NCBI GenBank assembly: GCA_021413865.1
Contig: JAIOPN010000062.1
Span: forward strand, 1-64,000
Direction of reading: 5' to 3'
Source of the DNA: Planctomycetota bacterium
GTDB taxonomy: Bacteria > Planctomycetota > Phycisphaerae > Phycisphaerales > Phycisphaeraceae
DNA length: 64,000 nucleotides
The notes below the pieces were generated by a model. That model searched no databases and was not told the origin of the DNA. It worked only from the letters and a program-made list of their open reading frames with translations. Below are positions 348-10,404 of this stretch, piece by piece (position 1 is the first letter of the stretch; the number at the start of each line of letters is the position of its first letter). The position numbers and the translations under genes were made by a program.

Positions 348-3300
348 TCACCGCGCGCCGGGGCGGCGCGGGCCCGGGCGGAGCGCGGCGGGTTTGTCCG
401 CGGGCTTCTCGCTCGACGCAGGCGCGGTGGTAGGCCCATTGAACGGCAGCGGCTCCCCGCGCGGCGTGTCCGTCACCGTCCAGATTTTCCCGTCACGCAG
501 GTACATGCGTTGCATCTCGACAAAATTCAGCGGGCGTGCCCCCCACCGGCCGAACACCGCCACCTGGTCGCCCGATTCATCCACCGCGCGGTCGCGGTCA
601 AGCGGTTTGCTGATCGCCAGCGCCGGGCCCTCTGTGCGCCGCACCGCGATCACGCGAGGCGCCAGCGGCGGGATGAAGCCGCGGAAGCGCGGCGTCGTGT
701 CGGGGCCCATGAGTTCCAGCACCTTCAGCCCGTTCACCCCGTCGGCGACGTAGGCGTAGAGCGAGGCGTTGGTCATCGCGATCTTCACATCGCGGCAGTC
801 GTTGAGCTTCCCGCCGTCGTTGAAGAGGGTGGAGAGCACGGGCTTCTCGGGGTTGGTGACGTCGATGATCGCCAGGCCATCCTTGCCGTCGGCGACGAAG
901 GCCCATGTGCGCGCGACATAGACACGGTGTGCGTCGGCCAGCGGGATGGTCGCCGCCGGAACCGGCTTGGGCGCGGCGGGGTTCGTGACGTCGATCACCT
1001 TGAACCCGTCGGCGTCGGTGACGAAGGCGTAGCGGAACTGCACCGCGACACTGCGCGGGTCTCGCAGCGTGTCGGAACCAACATGAGCGGCGACCTTCGG
1101 GTCGGTGGGCTTGTCCAGGTCGATCACGGCGAGACCGGATTTCGAGGTGACGAAGGCGTTGTGCCCCGCGAGAGTGAGGTGCGTCAGGCCGGTGAGCTGG
1201 CCGCCGGGGTTGAAGGCGGCCGAGCCGTCGGCGAGCTTCGCACGCTCGAGGAAATTGTTTTGCGGGTCGCCATCCAGGAGCGTTGCGGCGCTGGTGAGGA
1301 TCAAGCCTTCCTCGCTGTCGCCGATGTAGAGGTAGGCGTACATCGGGTGGATCGGCTGCTCGCGGTTGATGTGCCAGGCCTGGGGCTCATCGAGGCCGAC
1401 GGCGCGGGGCTTGGTGGGGTCGGAGGAGAGCCGTTCGCGCACCGGGTCCACGCCGAGCGTGGTCGGGCTGGCGACGGCGACGCAGTTTTTCGTGTCGAAC
1501 CCGAGCCGTTGGCCCAGCGGGGAGACCGGGGCGGTGACGATGCGTTCGCTAAAGCCCTTGTTGTCGATGTTGGCGATGTCGAAAACATAAAATCCGGCGC
1601 GGCCGCGCGCGGCGTAGAGGTATTCGCCGCGGAGCTGAAGGTCGAGGATTTCGGCGCCGCTCGCGGGGGGGCCGGCGTCGTGGTGGTGGGATTCTTCGAG
1701 CAGGAGCGCCCCTCCGGGGCGGCCGCTAAGCGCGGGGTCGCGCTTCATGGATTTGAACTCGTCCGGGTACGCCAGCGTGTGCAGGTGCGAGCCGTACACC
1801 GCCTGCGGCTCGTCGTGCTCCGTGACGGCCACCGCCTCCAACCCGTGCGGGCCCGTCGCCACATACGCGTACCGCCCCATGAAATTGACGAAATTCGTCC
1901 CCTGCAACAGGAGCTGCGCCATCCACGCGTTGTTCGAGTTGTCCTCCGCCAGGTGGCAGTCGGAGCACATCTTGGTCGTGCCCACGCCGCCGGTCGCGTG
2001 CGGGAAGTGCGGGTTGAACGCCTGCCCGGAAAAACCCTCGCCCGAGACGGTCTGCTGCTGGTGATAGACCCACTCACGGTTCTGGTTCTGGCTGGAGACC
2101 AGCACCGCCGACGAGGAGCGCACGGGGACGATCTTGCCCCCCTTCACCGAGCCGTCCCGCCCGAGCATGAAGACGTCGTCGCGCAGCACCTGGAAGTTGT
2201 ACTGCGTGTAGTTGCGGGTAAAGAGATTTTCATTGTGCAGCATCGGGGCGCGCTGATTGGCCTTCATGCGCAGGTGGCAGCCGAAGCAGGAGGTCATCCA
2301 CGACGTGTGGCAGGTGTAGCACTCCATGTCGTCGGTGGAGTGGGCGAGTCTCGACGCGGGCCTGGATTTCACGTCCGGCGATCCGATGAGCGGAAGGTCG
2401 CCCCATGTGGCGCCGTCCTTGCGGATGGTCTTGGCGTAGCGTGAAAGCTTCGCCGACTCCGGGTGCGCGAGCGACCACGTCGACGCGGGGTTGAGCGTGT
2501 CGTGCGTCTGCGTGACGGCCCACTCGACGGCGGGGTCGAGCGACGACCGCTGGATGAGGGCGCCGGCCCGCCACTCGAAGCGTCGCTTGCGCTCCTTGCC
2601 CACGCCGACCCACATCTTGGAGAGGTCGGTCCCACCCGGCGGCGCGGCGACGCCGGAGGTGCGGAGCGTGGACTGCTTGTCGTACGTGCCGTGGCAGTCG
2701 ATGCAGGTGATCTCGGTGGCGTTGCGCGTCTCGCCGTAGAGCCTGCCGTTGCCGTGCACGTCCTGGTCGAAGTGGCAATCAACGCACTGCATGCCGCGCT
2801 CGAGGTGGATGTCCTTGAGGTGCACGGCCTTGGTCCACTTGTCCGGATCATCGGGATCGATCTGCTTGCCGGCACGGTCGATCATGTTGCCCTGACGGTC
2901 CTTCTTGAAGACGGCGCGGAATACCCAACCGTGGCCGTGGAAGTCGGCGAATTGGTTGTGCTTAAGGGAGTCGTTGAAGACGGGGTCGGTTTTTTTCCCA
3001 TCTCCATCAACCGCACGCGGCTCACCCGTGCGCTCCAGGAAATCCTTGCCCGCCGTCACGCCCGTGTGCGACACCGCTTCCGGATACAGATCACCCCACA
3101 ACCCGCGCAGCTGCGCCCCCTCCGGGTTCTTGCGGTTGGCGAGCCATTCCTGCTCGGGCGTGGGTTTGTGCGACGCGTTGGGGTACATCGCCTCGCCGTC
3201 GGACTCGTTGTCCCACCACATGTAGCCCAGGTAGCTGTTCGCGTAGCTGGTGCCGGGGTGGATGTGGCAGGTGATGCATTGCGAGTTGGGGATGGAGTTC

Positions 3301-4622
3301 GTGAAGGCGTGTTTGATCGGGTGACCGGGTTCATCTTTCGGAACTGTCGGATCGACGGAGGCGGACCGCCCGCGGTTGCCGAGCACCGCCAGCACACCGG
3401 AGTGAGCAGGATCGCGGTCGTTCGCATAAGGCGTGTGGCAGGCGGTGCAGCCCGAGGCGCGGAAGTCGCCGGCGTGGTCGTTGGTGCCGGGGAAATTCAG
3501 CACGGGGTCGAGCAGCCGCGTCTTCTGCAAACCCAGGAAAACCGGGTCGGTGCGCGTGAGCGTGCCCAGCCCGCGCACGGACAATCCCTTGTCGGGCTTG
3601 CCGGGTTCGCCGAGCGGGTTGGGCGTGCCGGCCTCGTTGGGGGCGGCATTCGGCGTCGCGCCGCCGGGGACGGGGAGGCGCGTGCCGCGCTCGAAGATGC
3701 GCAGGATGTTGCCGGGCTGCGCGATGTTCCAGACCGGCAGCGGCGTGAGCGAGGGGAGCACGCCTTGTTTTTCCATCTCGTCGCGCGTGGGCCAACGCAC
3801 GTCGGCGACGAGCCGCTTCTCTTCCTTGCTCCACTTCGCGGAGTCCAGATCGATCACGCCGCGCAACTCCTGCGGCAGGCCAAACGGTGAGTAGCTCTCG
3901 CCGTACACCGGGAGCTTGTTGGGGACCGAGCCGTTGTTGTAGAGCGCGGCGCTCCAGAGCATCGCCCCGTGGGTCATCATGCCCTGGCGCACGGCCGTCA
4001 CCTGCTCGGCGTGGCAGGCGGCGCAGGCGAAGTCGGCCACGCGCAGGTCGCCGGGGTTGATGAACCGCACAAACTCGGGGGATTCCTGGTTCAGCAACGC
4101 GTACACGTCGGTGCGTCGCCGACGGCGGTGCGCGGCGGCGGGGTCGTCGTGCCCCGCGTGCTCGCCGAACGGACGGCCGTCAATCAGGTCGTCGCCGAAC
4201 CACGCGGCGAGATTGCGCGGCGGGACGTGCGCATTGTGCATCAGCGCGTAATAGGGCGTGGTGCCGGGCTCGATATTTTCGGCGCGCGTAACCGTCGCAT
4301 CACCGCCGTGGCAATCCGCGCAGCCGATCGCGAGCGTCCGCCCCGGGTGCATGTCGGCGTCGTCCGTCTGCCCGTGGCAGGTGATGCAGCCGGCGGACTT
4401 GGCGGCGGCGGCCTCGCTGGTCTGCGCTTTTGGCGCGGGGTCGGCCATGCGCCTGACGAGTTCATCGTGCGCCTTGCCCGGGTCGCTGATGGTGGCCACA
4501 TACTCCGGGTCCCACGCCGCACCGCCCCGCCAGTACTTCGCGTGCTCACACGCAAACAGCACGGCGGCCGCACCCGCGAGCAGCGCCACGAACCGCGTCT
4601 TGTGCCATCGTGCCTTGGTCAT
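348..4622 (-). CDS. Decaheme c-type cytochrome with C-terminal LVIVD-like beta-propeller
   Basis: A 1424-residue exported protein. The N-terminus has a hydrophobic stretch ending LFAC, compatible with a lipoprotein signal. Ten CxxCH heme-binding motifs are visible at roughly residues 78, 100, 197, 390, 447, 611, 637, 765, 777 and 884 (CITCH, CADCH, CAACH, CTACH, CITCH, CVDCH, CIDCH, CYTCH, CFGCH, CSDCH). From about residue 950 the heme motifs stop and LVIVD-type repeats follow (VIDLDKP, VIDVTNP, IIDVTNP), expected to form a beta-propeller. The gene starts one base after the stop of the upstream outer-membrane protein gene, so the two are probably translationally coupled. A role in periplasmic or outer-surface electron transfer is likely from family knowledge; the electron donor and acceptor are unknown. 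No cytochrome maturation gene is nearby. Confidence 0.85.
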   Translation of the reverse strand: MTKARWHKTRFVALLAGAAAVLFACEHAKYWRGGAAWDPEYVATISDPGKAHDELVRRMADPAPKAQTSEAAAAKSAGCITCHGQTDDADMHPGRTLAIGCADCHGGDATVTRAENIEPGTTPYYALMHNAHVPPRNLAAWFGDDLIDGRPFGEHAGHDDPAAAHRRRRRTDVYALLNQESPEFVRFINPGDLRVADFACAACHAEQVTAVRQGMMTHGAMLWSAALYNNGSVPNKLPVYGESYSPFGLPQELRGVIDLDSAKWSKEEKRLVADVRWPTRDEMEKQGVLPSLTPLPVWNIAQPGNILRIFERGTRLPVPGGATPNAAPNEAGTPNPLGEPGKPDKGLSVRGLGTLTRTDPVFLGLQKTRLLDPVLNFPGTNDHAGDFRASGCTACHTPYANDRDPAHSGVLAVLGNRGRSASVDPTVPKDEPGHPIKHAFTNSIPNSQCITCHIHPGTSYANSYLGYMWWDNESDGEAMYPNASHKPTPEQEWLANRKNPEGAQLRGLWGDLYPEAVSHTGVTAGKDFLERTGEPRAVDGDGKKTDPVFNDSLKHNQFADFHGHGWVFRAVFKKDRQGNMIDRAGKQIDPDDPDKWTKAVHLKDIHLERGMQCVDCHFDQDVHGNGRLYGETRNATEITCIDCHGTYDKQSTLRTSGVAAPPGGTDLSKMWVGVGKERKRRFEWRAGALIQRSSLDPAVEWAVTQTHDTLNPASTWSLAHPESAKLSRYAKTIRKDGATWGDLPLIGSPDVKSRPASRLAHSTDDMECYTCHTSWMTSCFGCHLRMKANQRAPMLHNENLFTRNYTQYNFQVLRDDVFMLGRDGSVKGGKIVPVRSSSAVLVSSQNQNREWVYHQQQTVSGEGFSGQAFNPHFPHATGGVGTTKMCSDCHLAEDNSNNAWMAQLLLQGTNFVNFMGRYAYVATGPHGLEAVAVTEHDEPQAVYGSHLHTLAYPDEFKSMKRDPALSGRPGGALLLEESHHHDAGPPASGAEILDLQLRGEYLYAARGRAGFYVFDIANIDNKGFSERIVTAPVSPLGQRLGFDTKNCVAVASPTTLGVDPVRERLSSDPTKPRAVGLDEPQAWHINREQPIHPMYAYLYIGDSEEGLILTSAATLLDGDPQNNFLERAKLADGSAAFNPGGQLTGLTHLTLAGHNAFVTSKSGLAVIDLDKPTDPKVAAHVGSDTLRDPRSVAVQFRYAFVTDADGFKVIDVTNPAAPKPVPAATIPLADAHRVYVARTWAFVADGKDGLAIIDVTNPEKPVLSTLFNDGGKLNDCRDVKIAMTNASLYAYVADGVNGLKVLELMGPDTTPRFRGFIPPLAPRVIAVRRTEGPALAISKPLDRDRAVDESGDQVAVFGRWGARPLNFVEMQRMYLRDGKIWTVTDTPRGEPLPFNGPTTAPASSEKPADKPAALRPGPRRPGAR

Positions 4623-4623
4623 G

Positions 4624-6564
4624 TCAGTACGTCAGCGTGATCCCGGTGAAGACCTGGTAGAGCATCGTCCTGGTCTCATAGATATCCGTGAATCCCTGGC
4701 CGGGGAAGAAGAGCGACCCGCCGACGGAGAGGATCACGTTGTTGTTCAGGAACGGCCGGTACTGCCAGACCATGTCGGCCTCGCAGCCCAGGTGTGTGTC
4801 CACATGCTGCTGGTTCAGCAGCAGTTCCACGCTCGCCGTGTCCGCCATCCAGATCGAGTTGACGTTTACGCTCGCGCGCAGCTTGGGCGTGACCTCCACG
4901 TCCAGCCCGCCGCCGACCAGGATCGTGCCGGGGTTGACGTAGTTGCTCTGCCCCTCGCCCTTGGTCGAGGTGAGGTCGTTGTAAAAGCTCTTGGCGCTGG
5001 TGAGGTTCACGCCCAGCAGCCGCAGCGCCTGGCTCTGGTAGAAGCTCGAGGGCCCGCCGGCAAACGTCGGGTTGTCCACGATGCCGTCGAACCCGCCCGC
5101 CCTGCCGTCCGTCGGGTCGCCGTCGCCGCTGGCGTAGAGCACCGAGAATTTAGGCCGCAGCCAGTCCACGTCCACGCTCAGCTCGACCGCGCCCATGTAG
5201 GCGCCGATGTCCACGCCGCGACCGGCGATCGGGTTGCCGTCGTCACGGCCGGTGACGTAGTAGAACGCGTGGTCGATGTTCAGCCGCCCGATGTGGCCGT
5301 CGCCGGTCCAGCCCAGGTAATACGCGTCGATGTTGTGCGGCAGCGGCGTGCCCGCCAATTCCGGGATCACCGGGAAGCCGTTGCTGTCGAACTCGGTATC
5401 CGACTGGTCGTGGTTCCAGTGGAACGAGACCTGCGTGTTGTAGCCGTGCCAAATGAAATCCTGCCAGGTCGCGTTGGCGATGAGCACCTGCTGCTCGCGC
5501 CACTTCAGCTCGGTAAGTTCGGAGTTGGTGTCCTTGTCACTCTGGTTGAAGAAGGCGAGGTTGTACTGGAGGCGGTTGGATTCGGCGTTGCCGAACACGC
5601 GCAGGCCGTCGGTCACGTCGCTGAAGACGAAGCCGCGGAAGTCGGAGATGAAGAACTGCCGCCCGGCACGCAGGGTGGCGACGTCGAAGTTCGGGCTCAG
5701 GTCCCCCAGGTGGTAATCGAGGAACGCCTCCTGGAGCGTGGCGAAGGCGTCGTCGCGCCGGTCGCCGTCGCGGACGTCGATGTTGACGCCGTTGTCTTCC
5801 TGCAACTCGAGGTGGTTGACGTTGAACGCCGGGGTGACGCGGATGAGCCAGTCGGGCGGGCGGTAGGCGGTGTAGCCCTGGAACAATTCAAAGCTCAGGA
5901 GGAACGTCTGGCTGATGAACAATTGTTTCCCGTCGCCGAAGGCGTCGAACTGCGACGAGTCCGCGGCGCTCACGCCCGAGGGGGTGGGCAGCCGGCGGTA
6001 GTTGAAGAACGTGTCAGAGATCGCGCTGGCGGAGAAAAAAAGGTTGCCCGCCCGGTTGATCGGGTAGTCCCCCTTGAGGACGTTGCGGTCGTAGGGGTTG
6101 AGCGCGTCGCCTTGGGTGTAGGGCGAGTCGCCGCCGGAGGCGTTCATGAGGAGCGGGTCGGAACCGGTCTGCCGGCCGTAGCGGTCCCAGCGCGGCCACC
6201 CCATCCGCCAGCGGTCAGGATGCGGGATGGCCGAGCCGTTGAGCGAGCGTGAGACGGTGACGGGCTGCGTGGCGGGTTTCCCGCCGGCATTGCCTAACGG
6301 GTCCACCGCGCGGCGGAAGTCGAGGTAACGCCGTTCCTCGTCGCTCAGATTCGGGTCGGGCGGCGCAGGTTTGGTTTCGGGTGCGGGTGAGGTGGTTGAA
6401 GCCGTGGCCGGCGATGTCGTGGCGGCGGCGGACGATGCGGGCGGAGGCACGGCGCTCTTTTTCGGCGGCGGCCCGGCGTGGGCGTGGCCACACAGCCCGA
6501 GAACGGCCAGCGCCAATCCCGTCACCACCGCGCGGTTTTTCAGACCCTCTGCTGCCGATCTCAA
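4624..6564 (-). CDS. Porin-like outer-membrane beta-barrel protein
   Basis: 646 residues from a TTG start with AGGGA upstream; a GTG about 11 codons further in is the alternative. A signal peptide (VVTGLALAVLGLCGHAHA) is followed by a Pro/Ala/Thr-rich linker. The rest alternates short amphipathic beta strands with Asp/Gly/Asn turns, for example RLQYNLAFFNQSDKDTN and QVSFHWNHDQSDTEFDSNG, and the protein ends in an aromatic residue (TGITLTY), as outer-membrane barrels do. Its stop precedes the decaheme cytochrome start by one base. Size and pairing recall the porin of Mtr-type porin-cytochrome conduits, but I see no specific MtrB hallmark such as an N-terminal CxxC in the mature protein. It could equally be a substrate porin. 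Confidence 0.7.
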   Translation of the reverse strand: MRSAAEGLKNRAVVTGLALAVLGLCGHAHAGPPPKKSAVPPPASSAAATTSPATASTTSPAPETKPAPPDPNLSDEERRYLDFRRAVDPLGNAGGKPATQPVTVSRSLNGSAIPHPDRWRMGWPRWDRYGRQTGSDPLLMNASGGDSPYTQGDALNPYDRNVLKGDYPINRAGNLFFSASAISDTFFNYRRLPTPSGVSAADSSQFDAFGDGKQLFISQTFLLSFELFQGYTAYRPPDWLIRVTPAFNVNHLELQEDNGVNIDVRDGDRRDDAFATLQEAFLDYHLGDLSPNFDVATLRAGRQFFISDFRGFVFSDVTDGLRVFGNAESNRLQYNLAFFNQSDKDTNSELTELKWREQQVLIANATWQDFIWHGYNTQVSFHWNHDQSDTEFDSNGFPVIPELAGTPLPHNIDAYYLGWTGDGHIGRLNIDHAFYYVTGRDDGNPIAGRGVDIGAYMGAVELSVDVDWLRPKFSVLYASGDGDPTDGRAGGFDGIVDNPTFAGGPSSFYQSQALRLLGVNLTSAKSFYNDLTSTKGEGQSNYVNPGTILVGGGLDVEVTPKLRASVNVNSIWMADTASVELLLNQQHVDTHLGCEADMVWQYRPFLNNNVILSVGGSLFFPGQGFTDIYETRTMLYQVFTGITLTY

Positions 6565-7425: not shown

Positions 7426-10404
7426 GTGTGGAAGCTACTGACCCGTCGGCCGGCGCGTGCCAAGCGGCCCAGGCCCACGCCCGCCTTCTTTGAGCGGCTC
7501 GAAGAGCGCGCCCTCCTGGCCGTCGGCACCACGCTGGGCGTGCTCACCGACACCTTCGTTTACAACGACGTGGACGGCGACCAGGTCACCGTCGTCCTCC
7601 GCGGCGCGGGCACGGTGGACCTCACTCTCAAGGACAACGCCGTCGACCTGGCCGACCTCGACGCCATCGCCTTCCACGACACCGACCTCACCACCTCGCT
7701 CGCCATCACCCTCAAGAAGGCCCGCATCGGCCCGCGCGTGGGCAACACCGTCATCGGCTCCATCACCGGCGGCACCGTCGGCTCCATCACCATGACCAAC
7801 GCCTCGCTCGGCGGCGACCTCAACCTCTCCGGCTCCCTCCGCCAGTTCCGCGCCGACGCCATCGTCAACGGCGCCGACTTCATCCTCGGCTCCACCCCGC
7901 CGCAGGGGCTCTCGCTCGAACTGCTCACCCTCAGCGGCCTCATCGACAACCCCGTCAACATCAACATCCCCGGCGGGTTCTCCAAGCTCGCCATCACGAA
8001 CGACGCGGCCTATTTCTCCGTCAACACCGACGGCGACCTGAACAACGTCAACTTCAAGGGCGCCGTCGCCAACGCCTCCTTCACCATCGGCGGCGCGGTC
8101 CGCGCCATGGACCTGCGCAACGGCGTCGCCGACACCGCCATCACCGTCGCCAGCGACCTGGACCGCCTCCGCATCGTCGGCAACGGCTCGGCCCTGCGCA
8201 TCCGCGTCGGCGGCTCCATGACGCAGTTCTCCACCACCAAAAACAAATCCGGCGCCGGCTCGCTCCTCGACACGCTCATGGGCGTCTCGGGCGCGATCAC
8301 CAATCTCAAGATCGCCGGCGGCGTTACCGACTCCACGCTCGCCGCCACCGAGGGGATGGACGGCATCACCACCGGCGCGGCCGTGACCAACTCGATGCTG
8401 CTCGCCGGCACCACGCTCGACACCAACCTCCTGCTCGACGACGCGGCCTTCGGCGTGGCGACCATCGACCGCGTCACCATCGGCGGGGACTTCACCGACT
8501 CCATCCTCGCCGCCGGCGGCGACCCCGGGGCCGACCGCCTCTTCGCTTACAAGGAGGTGCTGCCCGGCGGGAAGATCTCGCACCTGACGGTCAAGGGGAT
8601 CATCGCGGCCGTCGCCTCGCCGCACCCGAACCCCGGCATTTACGCGGCGGAGCTGGGCCCGGTCTCCTTCGAGGGGCGCACGGGCCCGGCCGTCATCGAC
8701 CCGCTCCCCTCCCCTGCCAACGCGCTCAGCGCGACCGACGTCCAGGACATCCTCGAACGCGCCATCGCCCGCGCCCGGCAGCTCGGCGTCTCGGCGACCA
8801 TCAGCGTCGTGGACCGCGAGGGCAACGTGCTGGGCATCGTCCGCATGGACGGCGCGCTCACCACCGAAAACATCAGCGGCGGCGGCGCCGGCGGGATCGA
8901 GGCGATCGACGGCCTCATCTCCACCTCCATCATCGCCACCACGAAAGCGGGCACCGCCGCCTTCCTCTCCACCAGCAGGGGCAACGCCTTCTCCACCCGC
9001 ACCGCGGCGCAGATCATCCAGGAACACTTCCCGCCCGGCGTGAGCAACCAGCCCGGCGGGCCGCTCTTCGGCGTGCAACTCTCCAACCTCCCCACCTCCG
9101 ACGTGAACCGATTGCCGCTCGGGCTCTCGGCCGACCCGGGCGGACTCCCGCTCTACCGCGGCGGCGAGCTGCTGGGCGGCATCGGCGTCGAGATCGACGG
9201 CGAATACACCGTCACCAACAACAAATCCAGCCAGTCCACCACCGAGGAAAAAGTCGCCCTCGCCGGGCAGGTCGGCATGGCGCCCAAGGCGAACATCCGC
9301 GCCGACAAAATCTTCATCAACGGCATCCGCCTGCCCTACGCGAACGGCTCCAACCCGAAGCTCTCGTCGCTCACCGTGACCGACCTCACGAGCGACGGCG
9401 CGGTGGACATCATCGTCGCCCCGCAGGTCAGCCCCGCGAGCGGCTTCGCCCTCACCTTCCTGGGCAACATCCAGGGCGAGGCGCCCAACAACACGCTCTA
9501 CGATTTCTACAACGACACCACTGATCAGCTCACGTTCCTCGACGGCGTGGCAAACGGCGGCGAGCAACTCACCGCCGCCGAGGTACAGGAGATCCTCCAA
9601 CGTGCCCTGAAACTCGGCGGCAAGCTCCGCGCCGGCATCCGCCGCGACAGCCCGCAGCGCGCCCAGGTCACCGTCTCCGTGGTCGATCTGGACGGCAACC
9701 TGCTGGGCGCGTTCCGCAACACCGACGCCCCGCTGTTCGGTTACGACGTCTCCGTGCAGAAGGCCCGCACCGCCGCCTTCATGAGTCGGCCCGACGCCGG
9801 CGCGGAACTGGTCGGCCTCGGCGCGGAGTTCGCCGGCTACGTCGATGCCGCGAGCGACATCGGCCTCGACCTCGACGGCTCGGTCGCCCTCTCCACCCGC
9901 GCCATCGGCTTCCTCTCACGGCCCAACCTGCCCGACGGCATCAAGTCCGGCGTCTCCGGCCCCTTCACCGCGCAGCCCCCCGACACGTTCAGCCCCTTCA
10001 ACACCGGCCTGCAGACCGCGCTCCTGCTCCCCAACCTGGGCGATTTCCTCACCGCCTTCAACGCACTGCCCGAGGCCGCCGCCTGGGCGCAATACCAAGC
10101 CGGCACCCTCGGCGGGCCTTCGGTCGTCCGCAACGACAGCCACGGCGGCGGTCTGCCCGGCAACAGCCTCGCCAACGGCCTGCAAATCTTCTCCGGCGGC
10201 GTGCCGCTCTATAAGAACGGTGTGCTCGTCGGCGCGATCGGCGTCTCGGGCGACGGCGTCGAGCAGGACGACTACGTCGCCTTCGCCGGCGCAACGGACT
10301 ACGCCCCGACCGGGGATGTTCGACGCGCCGATCAAACACTCGTCGCCGGCGGCATCCGGTTGCCGTATGTGAAACTCCCGCGCTCGCCCTTCGCGGGGGT
10401 GTGA
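7426..10404 (+). CDS. Large exported LEPR-xLL protein with two GlcG/HbpS-type domains
   Basis: 992 residues, starting at GTG with AGGAG eight bases upstream. The N-terminus FFERLEERALLAV matches the LEPR-xLL motif found at the start of large exported proteins in planctomycetes and relatives. Residues about 40-400 are a repetitive Gly/Asn/Thr-rich beta region (repeats such as IGGDFTDS, VGGSMTQFS) that should form a solenoid. Two GlcG/HbpS-like (DUF336) domains follow. The first (about 430-640) begins LSATDVQDILERAIARAR and ends near the IRLPY at about 637. The second (about 710-985) begins LTAAEVQEILQRALKLGG and ends with a matching IRLPY. HbpS relatives bind heme or corrin-like cofactors, so a cell-surface cofactor-binding role is a reasonable inference. 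A strong palindrome follows the stop. Confidence 0.75.
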   Translation: MWKLLTRRPARAKRPRPTPAFFERLEERALLAVGTTLGVLTDTFVYNDVDGDQVTVVLRGAGTVDLTLKDNAVDLADLDAIAFHDTDLTTSLAITLKKARIGPRVGNTVIGSITGGTVGSITMTNASLGGDLNLSGSLRQFRADAIVNGADFILGSTPPQGLSLELLTLSGLIDNPVNINIPGGFSKLAITNDAAYFSVNTDGDLNNVNFKGAVANASFTIGGAVRAMDLRNGVADTAITVASDLDRLRIVGNGSALRIRVGGSMTQFSTTKNKSGAGSLLDTLMGVSGAITNLKIAGGVTDSTLAATEGMDGITTGAAVTNSMLLAGTTLDTNLLLDDAAFGVATIDRVTIGGDFTDSILAAGGDPGADRLFAYKEVLPGGKISHLTVKGIIAAVASPHPNPGIYAAELGPVSFEGRTGPAVIDPLPSPANALSATDVQDILERAIARARQLGVSATISVVDREGNVLGIVRMDGALTTENISGGGAGGIEAIDGLISTSIIATTKAGTAAFLSTSRGNAFSTRTAAQIIQEHFPPGVSNQPGGPLFGVQLSNLPTSDVNRLPLGLSADPGGLPLYRGGELLGGIGVEIDGEYTVTNNKSSQSTTEEKVALAGQVGMAPKANIRADKIFINGIRLPYANGSNPKLSSLTVTDLTSDGAVDIIVAPQVSPASGFALTFLGNIQGEAPNNTLYDFYNDTTDQLTFLDGVANGGEQLTAAEVQEILQRALKLGGKLRAGIRRDSPQRAQVTVSVVDLDGNLLGAFRNTDAPLFGYDVSVQKARTAAFMSRPDAGAELVGLGAEFAGYVDAASDIGLDLDGSVALSTRAIGFLSRPNLPDGIKSGVSGPFTAQPPDTFSPFNTGLQTALLLPNLGDFLTAFNALPEAAAWAQYQAGTLGGPSVVRNDSHGGGLPGNSLANGLQIFSGGVPLYKNGVLVGAIGVSGDGVEQDDYVAFAGATDYAPTGDVRRADQTLVAGGIRLPYVKLPRSPFAGV

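Follow-up and report, generated by a model that had tools for sequence, protein, structure and literature searches.

We have analyzed a stretch of 64,000 nucleotides from a member of the Planctomycetota (family Phycisphaeraceae; assembly GCA_021413865.1, contig JAIOPN010000062.1, positions 1 to 64,000), referred to here as the window, which encodes a large decaheme cytochrome and, immediately upstream on the same strand, an outer-membrane beta-barrel. An earlier note on this DNA had proposed that the two form a conduit of the Mtr type. The decaheme-barrel pair on which that proposal was built is indeed conserved and is accompanied by further electron-transfer genes, but the geometry of an insulated wire is not supported, given the 18 strands predicted for the barrel and the spread of the hemes. 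Beyond what the note contained, there is a third partner in the window (an HbpS-like protein, positions 7426-10404) and an inner-membrane part elsewhere in the genome. We regard this larger gene set as the actual find, and an Mtr-like wire as unlikely. Judging from gene content, the set would be a system of trans-envelope multiheme electron transfer, and our own reading, on which we find the balance even, is that the pair represents the outer-membrane end of a conserved electron-export chain in which seven kinds of protein take part and whose last element is a solute-type channel.

The cytochrome contains exactly ten CxxCH motifs (at residues 79, 101, 200, 392, 449, 613, 640, 768, 779 and 886), so that its hemes stretch over 812 residues. 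Such a number is far from what composition would give: in 2000 shuffles of the sequence the mean was 0.0095 motifs, with a maximum of one in any shuffle. The motifs are followed in the same chain by LVIVD-like repeats, as had been noted before, and the Pfam cut-off of this family is passed in two stretches (66.7 vs. 20.2 bits). Propeller-type repeats start at residues 916, 999, 1094, 1153, 1196, 1239 and 1288 (five of the seven were found by regular expression and two by eye), and seven readable repeats suggest that the C-terminal part is a seven-bladed propeller. At the other end of the protein, Cys25 lies in a lipobox-like context (LFAC-EH, judged by eye). This Cys-EH is kept at position 25 in all seven Phycisphaerae-type loci that hold the N terminus; cytochromes of other phyla mostly lack it, and a few of them (e.g., L060) have another lipobox-like cysteine (all by eye). 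Among PDB sequences there were only weak stretches of similarity to the cytochrome, the best to NrfB (E 0.0091), and a VIA search with the heme domain gave a single match, an octaheme nitrite reductase at the noise level (Z 2.4).

The barrel gene has a TTG start, a signal-peptide-like N terminus (by eye) and no CxxCH motif. Its stop ends at 4624 and the ATG of the cytochrome is at 4622, leaving one base between both genes, exactly as first described. The AlphaFold2 model of the barrel has 18 long strands (pLDDT 83.4, pTM 0.81), and, by Foldseek and VIA, it comes closest among solved folds to that of AlgE (Z 31.4, with an rmsd of 2.9 over 359 residues at ~15% identity), followed by the OprD/Occ channels. 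MtrB is a barrel of about 26 strands, and MtrA, the decaheme that pairs with it, is compact (~300 aa). By the cylinder formula, with assumed shear numbers, the axis radius would be 16.5-17.2 Å for 18 strands vs. 23.5-24.1 Å for 26. The reservation expressed at the outset, that the pore might be too small for a heme chain, is therefore partly borne out by the model (~17 vs. ~24 Å). The coordinates of these features are given in Table 1.

Table 1. Coordinates of the cytochrome-barrel pair and of the HbpS-like partner within the window
Feature	Position	Strand	Basis
Decaheme c-type cytochrome with C-terminal LVIVD-type repeats and lipobox-like Cys25, 1424 aa	348..4622	-	Motif count, Pfam, relatives
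Span of the ten CxxCH motifs (residues 79-890)	1953..4388	-	Heme Cys/His invariant or >=90% conserved across the 61 rows of alignment A2
Seven LVIVD-type repeats (residues 916 to ~1310), predicted seven-bladed propeller	693..1877	-	PF08309 66.7 bits and repeats read from the sequence
Outer-membrane beta-barrel, AlgE-like fold, 18 predicted strands, 646 aa	4624..6564	-	Homologue searches, AlphaFold2 model, fold comparison
Region of the barrel strands (model residues 145-615 of 616)	4630..6042	-	AlphaFold2 model, pLDDT 83.4
Divergent HbpS-like protein, 992 aa, three PF03928 stretches, export-signal-like N terminus FFERLEERALLA	7426..10404	+	PF03928 94.1 bits vs. cut-off 25

Family searches point in the same direction. 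At E<=1 the barrel of the window matched nothing in Pfam, in NCBIfam or among PDB sequences, and a profile of the barrel family found nothing in the PDB at E<=10. We have also scanned 67 barrel homologues against Pfam and NCBIfam (E<=1). Alginate_exp was matched by ten of them (best 9.1e-9) and DESULF_POR1, a model of outer-membrane homotrimeric porins, by 16 (best 1.9e-5). MtrB_PioB was not among the 16 Pfam families matched; there was no MtrB-family match in NCBIfam either, a database in which the presence of an MtrB model was left unchecked. PF11854 had no match across the whole genome to which the window belongs; in 14 control genomes it gave matches in two, none above the cut-off. No MtrB entry appears among the top 50 barrel matches listed by Foldseek and VIA, an absence that proves nothing. 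The cytochrome scored 15.3 bits against the DmsE family decaheme model (TIGR03508, cut-off 192.2). Hence, the comparison with MtrB, PioB and DmsE-type families that had been proposed gave no match above a cut-off, and the suspicion that the lack of an MtrB hallmark indicated an independent design has held.

A true Mtr-type conduit would have the heme chain partly inside the barrel and the propeller facing out, in place of the surface cytochrome. The two genes one base apart and their co-inheritance (see below) would suit it, and so would a conserved segment ahead of the first barrel strand that could serve as a docking site. However, the number of strands, the AlgE-closest fold, the lack of any MtrB-family match in the 67 barrels or of PF11854 in the genome, and the 812 residues over which the hemes are dispersed, unlike in the compact MtrA, all make a heme plug in the lumen unlikely. 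A lumen of the width modeled is unlikely to hold an MtrA-like protein, and we consider a conduit of this kind very improbable. We have also considered a polyanion exporter similar to AlgE. The net charge estimated for the lumen side, by a heuristic strand parity, is negative in the window barrel (-7) and on average in the 67 homologues (-5.2), so that this candidate is not favored.

The distribution of the pair was followed in two samples. The first is a panel of 101 genomes, namely that of the window and 100 relatives; the second comes from a wider scan of genome contigs, which gave 260 encoding stretches, and all locus counts refer to the best 80 loci. By record title these are 36 Verrucomicrobiota, 20 Planctomycetota (with L048, titled Vicinamibacteraceae, counted among them), 16 Acidobacteriota and eight others or unassigned, among which is Duganella guangzhouensis. 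In the panel, a near-full-length cytochrome is present in ten genomes and the barrel in the same ten, adjacent and on one strand in every case, with the cytochrome of G010 split across two contigs; 13 further genomes have only partial matches to the cytochrome. Among the 80 loci, 69, from four phyla or more, have a barrel homologue on the same strand. In 64 of the 69, no more than 600 bases separate its stop from the downstream point at which cytochrome homology begins; in four the gap is 733-917 bases, and at L110 the barrel is found ~3 kb downstream instead. Seven of the 11 loci that have no barrel match include <1 kb of upstream sequence, and L125 includes only 1.3 kb. The cytochromes of the 80 loci have ten CxxCH motifs in 63 cases, nine in 13, eight in three and seven in one (a truncated contig). 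Since both the number and the arrangement of the motifs are kept in relatives, this is not a chance pair of open reading frames (ORFs). Pairwise distances of the barrel and of the heme domain were strongly correlated (Mantel r 0.90 in 54 loci; maximum of 2000 permutations 0.16), which is a sign of co-inheritance but no proof of contact. The conservation of the pair, one of the checks proposed in the earlier note, is real.

Clustering of the ORFs around the 80 loci revealed recurrent neighbors: the HbpS-like protein, a c554-like cytochrome, a membrane decaheme, a cytochrome-b-like protein and an Fe-S protein. The HbpS-like proteins of L063, L061, L119 and L163 have lipoprotein-like starts (by eye), and the start of the one in the window (FFERLEERALLA) is of a type that we take to be a planctomycete export signal; together, these starts place the protein outside the cytoplasm. 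The c554-like cytochrome has three to four hemes across loci and is a triheme in the window genome. The membrane decaheme is a second decaheme cytochrome that, by eye, seems to be anchored in the membrane; in the window genome it is split into a 4-heme gene and a 6-heme gene. The cytochrome-b-like protein is a small membrane protein, and the Fe-S protein combines cyclic-nucleotide-binding (cNMP) and 4Fe-4S domains. In the window genome (G000), the c554-like, 4-heme, 6-heme, cytochrome-b-like and Fe-S genes are united on another contig of 15 kb, C61 (locus L138), and the c554-like gene there is the sole match of PF13435 in the whole genome at E<=0.01. As a separate observation, the membrane decaheme of proteobacteria appears to have an FHA-like N-terminal domain, seen at L163:17965-19758 (a weak PF16697 match) and at L119:4385-6055 (by eye).

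The co-occurrence of these genes in the 101 genomes was examined for the pair and for the cytochrome-b-like, HbpS-like and c554-like genes. Strong matches to the cytochrome-b-like protein are found in the same ten genomes as the pair (94.7-700 bits; the best elsewhere has 50.2, and 22 genomes have any match), as are those to the HbpS-like protein (best stretch >=350 bits; best elsewhere 50.9, any match in 34). The c554-like protein follows the pair in nine of the ten (>=351 bits; best elsewhere 47.7, any match in 17). In nine of the ten genomes (all but G062), the HbpS-like gene neighbors the barrel gene on one contig, and G076 has the five tested parts in a stretch of ~14 kb. At L050 all parts are on a single contig of 15.7 kb, with the 6-heme gene cut by the contig end. 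At L122, from Duganella, the whole set is co-oriented in one run on one strand. On a Sphingobium plasmid (L163; Sphingobium sp. TomMM15, AP027315.1) the set is held in two runs that face each other, one with the c554-like, HbpS-like, barrel and cytochrome genes and the other with a gene annotated as CpdA (a cAMP phosphodiesterase), the decaheme, the cytochrome-b-like and the Fe-S genes; all of them except CpdA are annotated as hypothetical.

A way to approach the direction of electron flow is to look at what is attached to the Fe-S protein, and we have scanned nine of these proteins for fused modules. A Pyr_redox flavoprotein is fused to it in L122, L119 and L163. At L061 there is a Fer2/HoxU-like fusion together with a NuoE/F-like neighbor gene, and an ORF family resembling this neighbor appears in seven of the 80 loci. 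On C61, a type II NADH dehydrogenase (NDH-2) with a C-terminal cNMP domain (L138:1609-3414, minus strand) adjoins the c554-like gene. The presence of three dissimilar NAD(P)H modules alongside one and the same Fe-S partner suggests that NAD(P)H is the electron source and that the flow is outward. The same chain might also run inward, with an external reductant oxidized at the outer membrane and the electrons feeding the inner-membrane module. Multiheme chains are reversible in principle, and PioAB and MtoAB have been suggested to act in Fe(II) oxidation (PMC6344600, from the part of that survey available to us). Yet the three modules, fused to the Fe-S protein or near it in some lineages, fit the oxidation of NAD(P)H better, and we regard inward flow as improbable.

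The electron-export chain that we propose would begin in the cytoplasm, where NAD(P)H would give up its electrons to a flavin or diaphorase module associated with the cyclic-nucleotide-domain Fe-S protein. The electrons might then cross the inner membrane through the small cytochrome-b-like protein to the membrane-anchored decaheme (4-heme plus 6-heme in the window genome), pass to the c554-like carrier with its three to four hemes and reach the decaheme-propeller cytochrome, which we picture docked on the 18-stranded AlgE-like barrel. The role of the barrel would be that of a solute channel or a docking platform, and not of an insulating sheath around a heme wire. The final acceptor could enter through the barrel or be reached at the surface together with the exported HbpS-like protein.

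Several observations weigh against such a chain. The small cytochrome-b-like protein has only sub-threshold Pfam matches (Ni_hydr_CYTB 17.9 bits, Ferric_reduct 15.4 and 18.0 bits), and the one of L122 has no Pfam match. Searching the 80 loci with the window genome's own proteins (ORFs at E<=1e-6), we found an HbpS-like homologue within the flank in 47, the c554-like in 31 and the Fe-S protein in 32, counts that are affected by many flanks being short; the 4-heme part was found in ten loci, the 6-heme part in 27 and the cytochrome-b-like protein in 29, and some of the Fe-S matches are weak (e.g., 29 bits at L120). Half of the ten genomes bearing the pair come from a single genus (g37), and the ten cannot be counted as independent events; one of the ten, G010 (an assembly in 470 contigs), has no c554-like match. 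Two Spartobacteria-type loci, L103 and L120, have no barrel homologue in 8-10 kb upstream and are real exceptions, and a third, L115, with none in 1.9 kb, is a probable one. Cytochrome residues 60-941 were modeled with medium confidence only (pLDDT 69.5), and none of the 29 Foldseek matches of the heme domain reached E<=0.001, leaving it with no meaningful solved relative in that search. Regarding direction, no NAD(P)H module is fused to the Fe-S proteins of L138, L083, L096, L050 and L064 (a separate one was sought only in L138), so that with five out of nine in this situation the argument rests on part of the family. Besides, several of the named host organisms are aerobes, for which electron export would answer no obvious need.

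A different function for the same genes would be that of a channel plus a periplasmic reductase, with the AlgE-like barrel letting in some small, soluble substrate, either an oxyanion or an organic molecule, the decaheme reducing it in the periplasm and no reduction taking place outside the cell. Such a function is among the roles discussed for ExtI with selenite and tellurite in Geobacter. The predicted 18-strand fold is of the solute-channel type, and the top NCBIfam match of the cytochrome is ExtM, from the ext selenite/tellurite cluster (83.1 bits; 72.8 for the protein of L096). However, the cut-off of ExtM is 800 bits, and a score so far below it indicates local similarity and no membership. 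The HbpS-like protein is also difficult to accommodate, because it is co-conserved and has lipoprotein- or export-like starts (by eye), and its site of action may be the outer membrane or the space beyond it. We consider a purely periplasmic reduction unlikely, albeit worth keeping in mind.

Among described systems, the Geobacter cluster extHIJKLMNOPQS is the nearest in logic. As far as the accessible part of its description goes, it brings together the porin ExtI, the large multiheme and decaheme cytochromes (ExtM and ExtN among the named components), the Fe-S protein ExtO and the cytochrome b ExtP in one set (PMC5877670), and this combination of porin, multiheme cytochromes, cytochrome b and Fe-S protein, like that found here, also speaks for the periplasmic alternative. 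ExtO is a Rieske protein, whereas the Fe-S protein of the present set has cNMP and 4Fe-4S domains, and the HbpS-like partner is a further difference. No rhodanese gene was noticed in the present set, unlike in the ext cluster, though no search was aimed at it, and no ExtI name appeared among the NCBIfam matches of the 67 barrels, a statement about names since no ExtI sequence or model was compared. With MtrCAB, PioAB and MtoAB the set shares an outer-membrane barrel paired with a decaheme and cytochromes across the envelope; it differs in having no MtrB_PioB match, 18 predicted strands, distant hemes, the propeller and the HbpS-like partner. The likeness to AlgE concerns the fold and the Alginate_exp matches of the homologues, whereas the window barrel has no Pfam match, low identity, a negative lumen-side charge estimate and a cytochrome partner.

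A porin and octaheme cytochrome system has been described in Verrucomicrobia by He et al. (2017), and the accessible part of that work names strain IMCC26134 (PMC5615132). The present system occurs in this host too, at 2.42 Mb (L096), and in both systems a porin lies beside a multiheme cytochrome. In that description the cytochrome beside the porin is periplasmic and has eight conserved heme sites, whereas the partner in L096 is a 10-heme protein of 1313 aa. Another locus of the strain, L139:8408-13268 at 2.59 Mb, contains a gene with six CxxCH motifs, a 274-aa gene with seven and a 775-aa gene that is porin-like by eye. It fits the published description, as far as we could consult it, better than L096 and is probably the system of He et al., though with seven hemes and not eight, so that identity of the present set with that cluster is unlikely. 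A third locus, L140, has a 772-aa gene with eight motifs and no evident porin alongside (by eye).

Other precedents are more distant. OmcK and OmcL combine a porin and one multiheme cytochrome with no adjacent periplasmic cytochrome; compared by description only, the accessible part mentions no propeller or HbpS-like partner (PMC10553843). In D. ferrophilus, NHL propeller genes lie beside multiheme genes with no apparent conduit, according to the portion available (PMC9769857). Known and putative conduits have been surveyed (PMC7399161, PMC6344600; both available in part), and the unnamed families in the supplements of MHCscan (PMC11475568, likewise available in part) may include this cytochrome. 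In the literature searched, with partial coverage of journals, we found no description of the present gene set, and no paper joining HbpS with a multiheme cytochrome or alginate export with a decaheme.

Tentatively, and with doubts that outweigh our confidence, the gene content may point to a new class of electron-export machinery, gated by cyclic nucleotides in the cytoplasm and ending, without an insulated wire, in an AlgE-fold channel, a decaheme-propeller cytochrome and a secreted HbpS-like protein, in Planctomycetota, Acidobacteriota, Verrucomicrobiota and Proteobacteria, including plasmids of Sphingobium. We know of no electron export in many of the carrier lineages. If the proposal is true, several phyla of soil and freshwater would share an outer-membrane electron route that searches built on known conduits would miss, and the problem of the outer membrane would have been solved differently, by combining a large cytochrome with a narrow channel of the solute type. 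An entry point made of an Fe-S protein with a cyclic-nucleotide domain, together with the CpdA-annotated neighbor in Sphingobium, would also imply an unusual control of electron export. Some of the carriers, Duganella guangzhouensis, Roseiconus nitratireducens, Verrucomicrobia bacterium IMCC26134 and Sphingobium sp., are by their titles not metagenome-assembled genomes, which makes the proposal directly testable.

Matches were also obtained on plasmids. Of 16 plasmid records with a match, 12 are from Sphingobium, and 13 of the 16 cover >=80% of the query; plasmids of Gloeothece and Nostoc are also among the matches. On the Sphingobium plasmid with the two facing runs, the set is preceded by a gene for a 2152-aa protein (L163:94-6552) that has no Pfam match at E<=0.001 and by another annotated as a heme:hemopexin-binding protein (L163:1-94).

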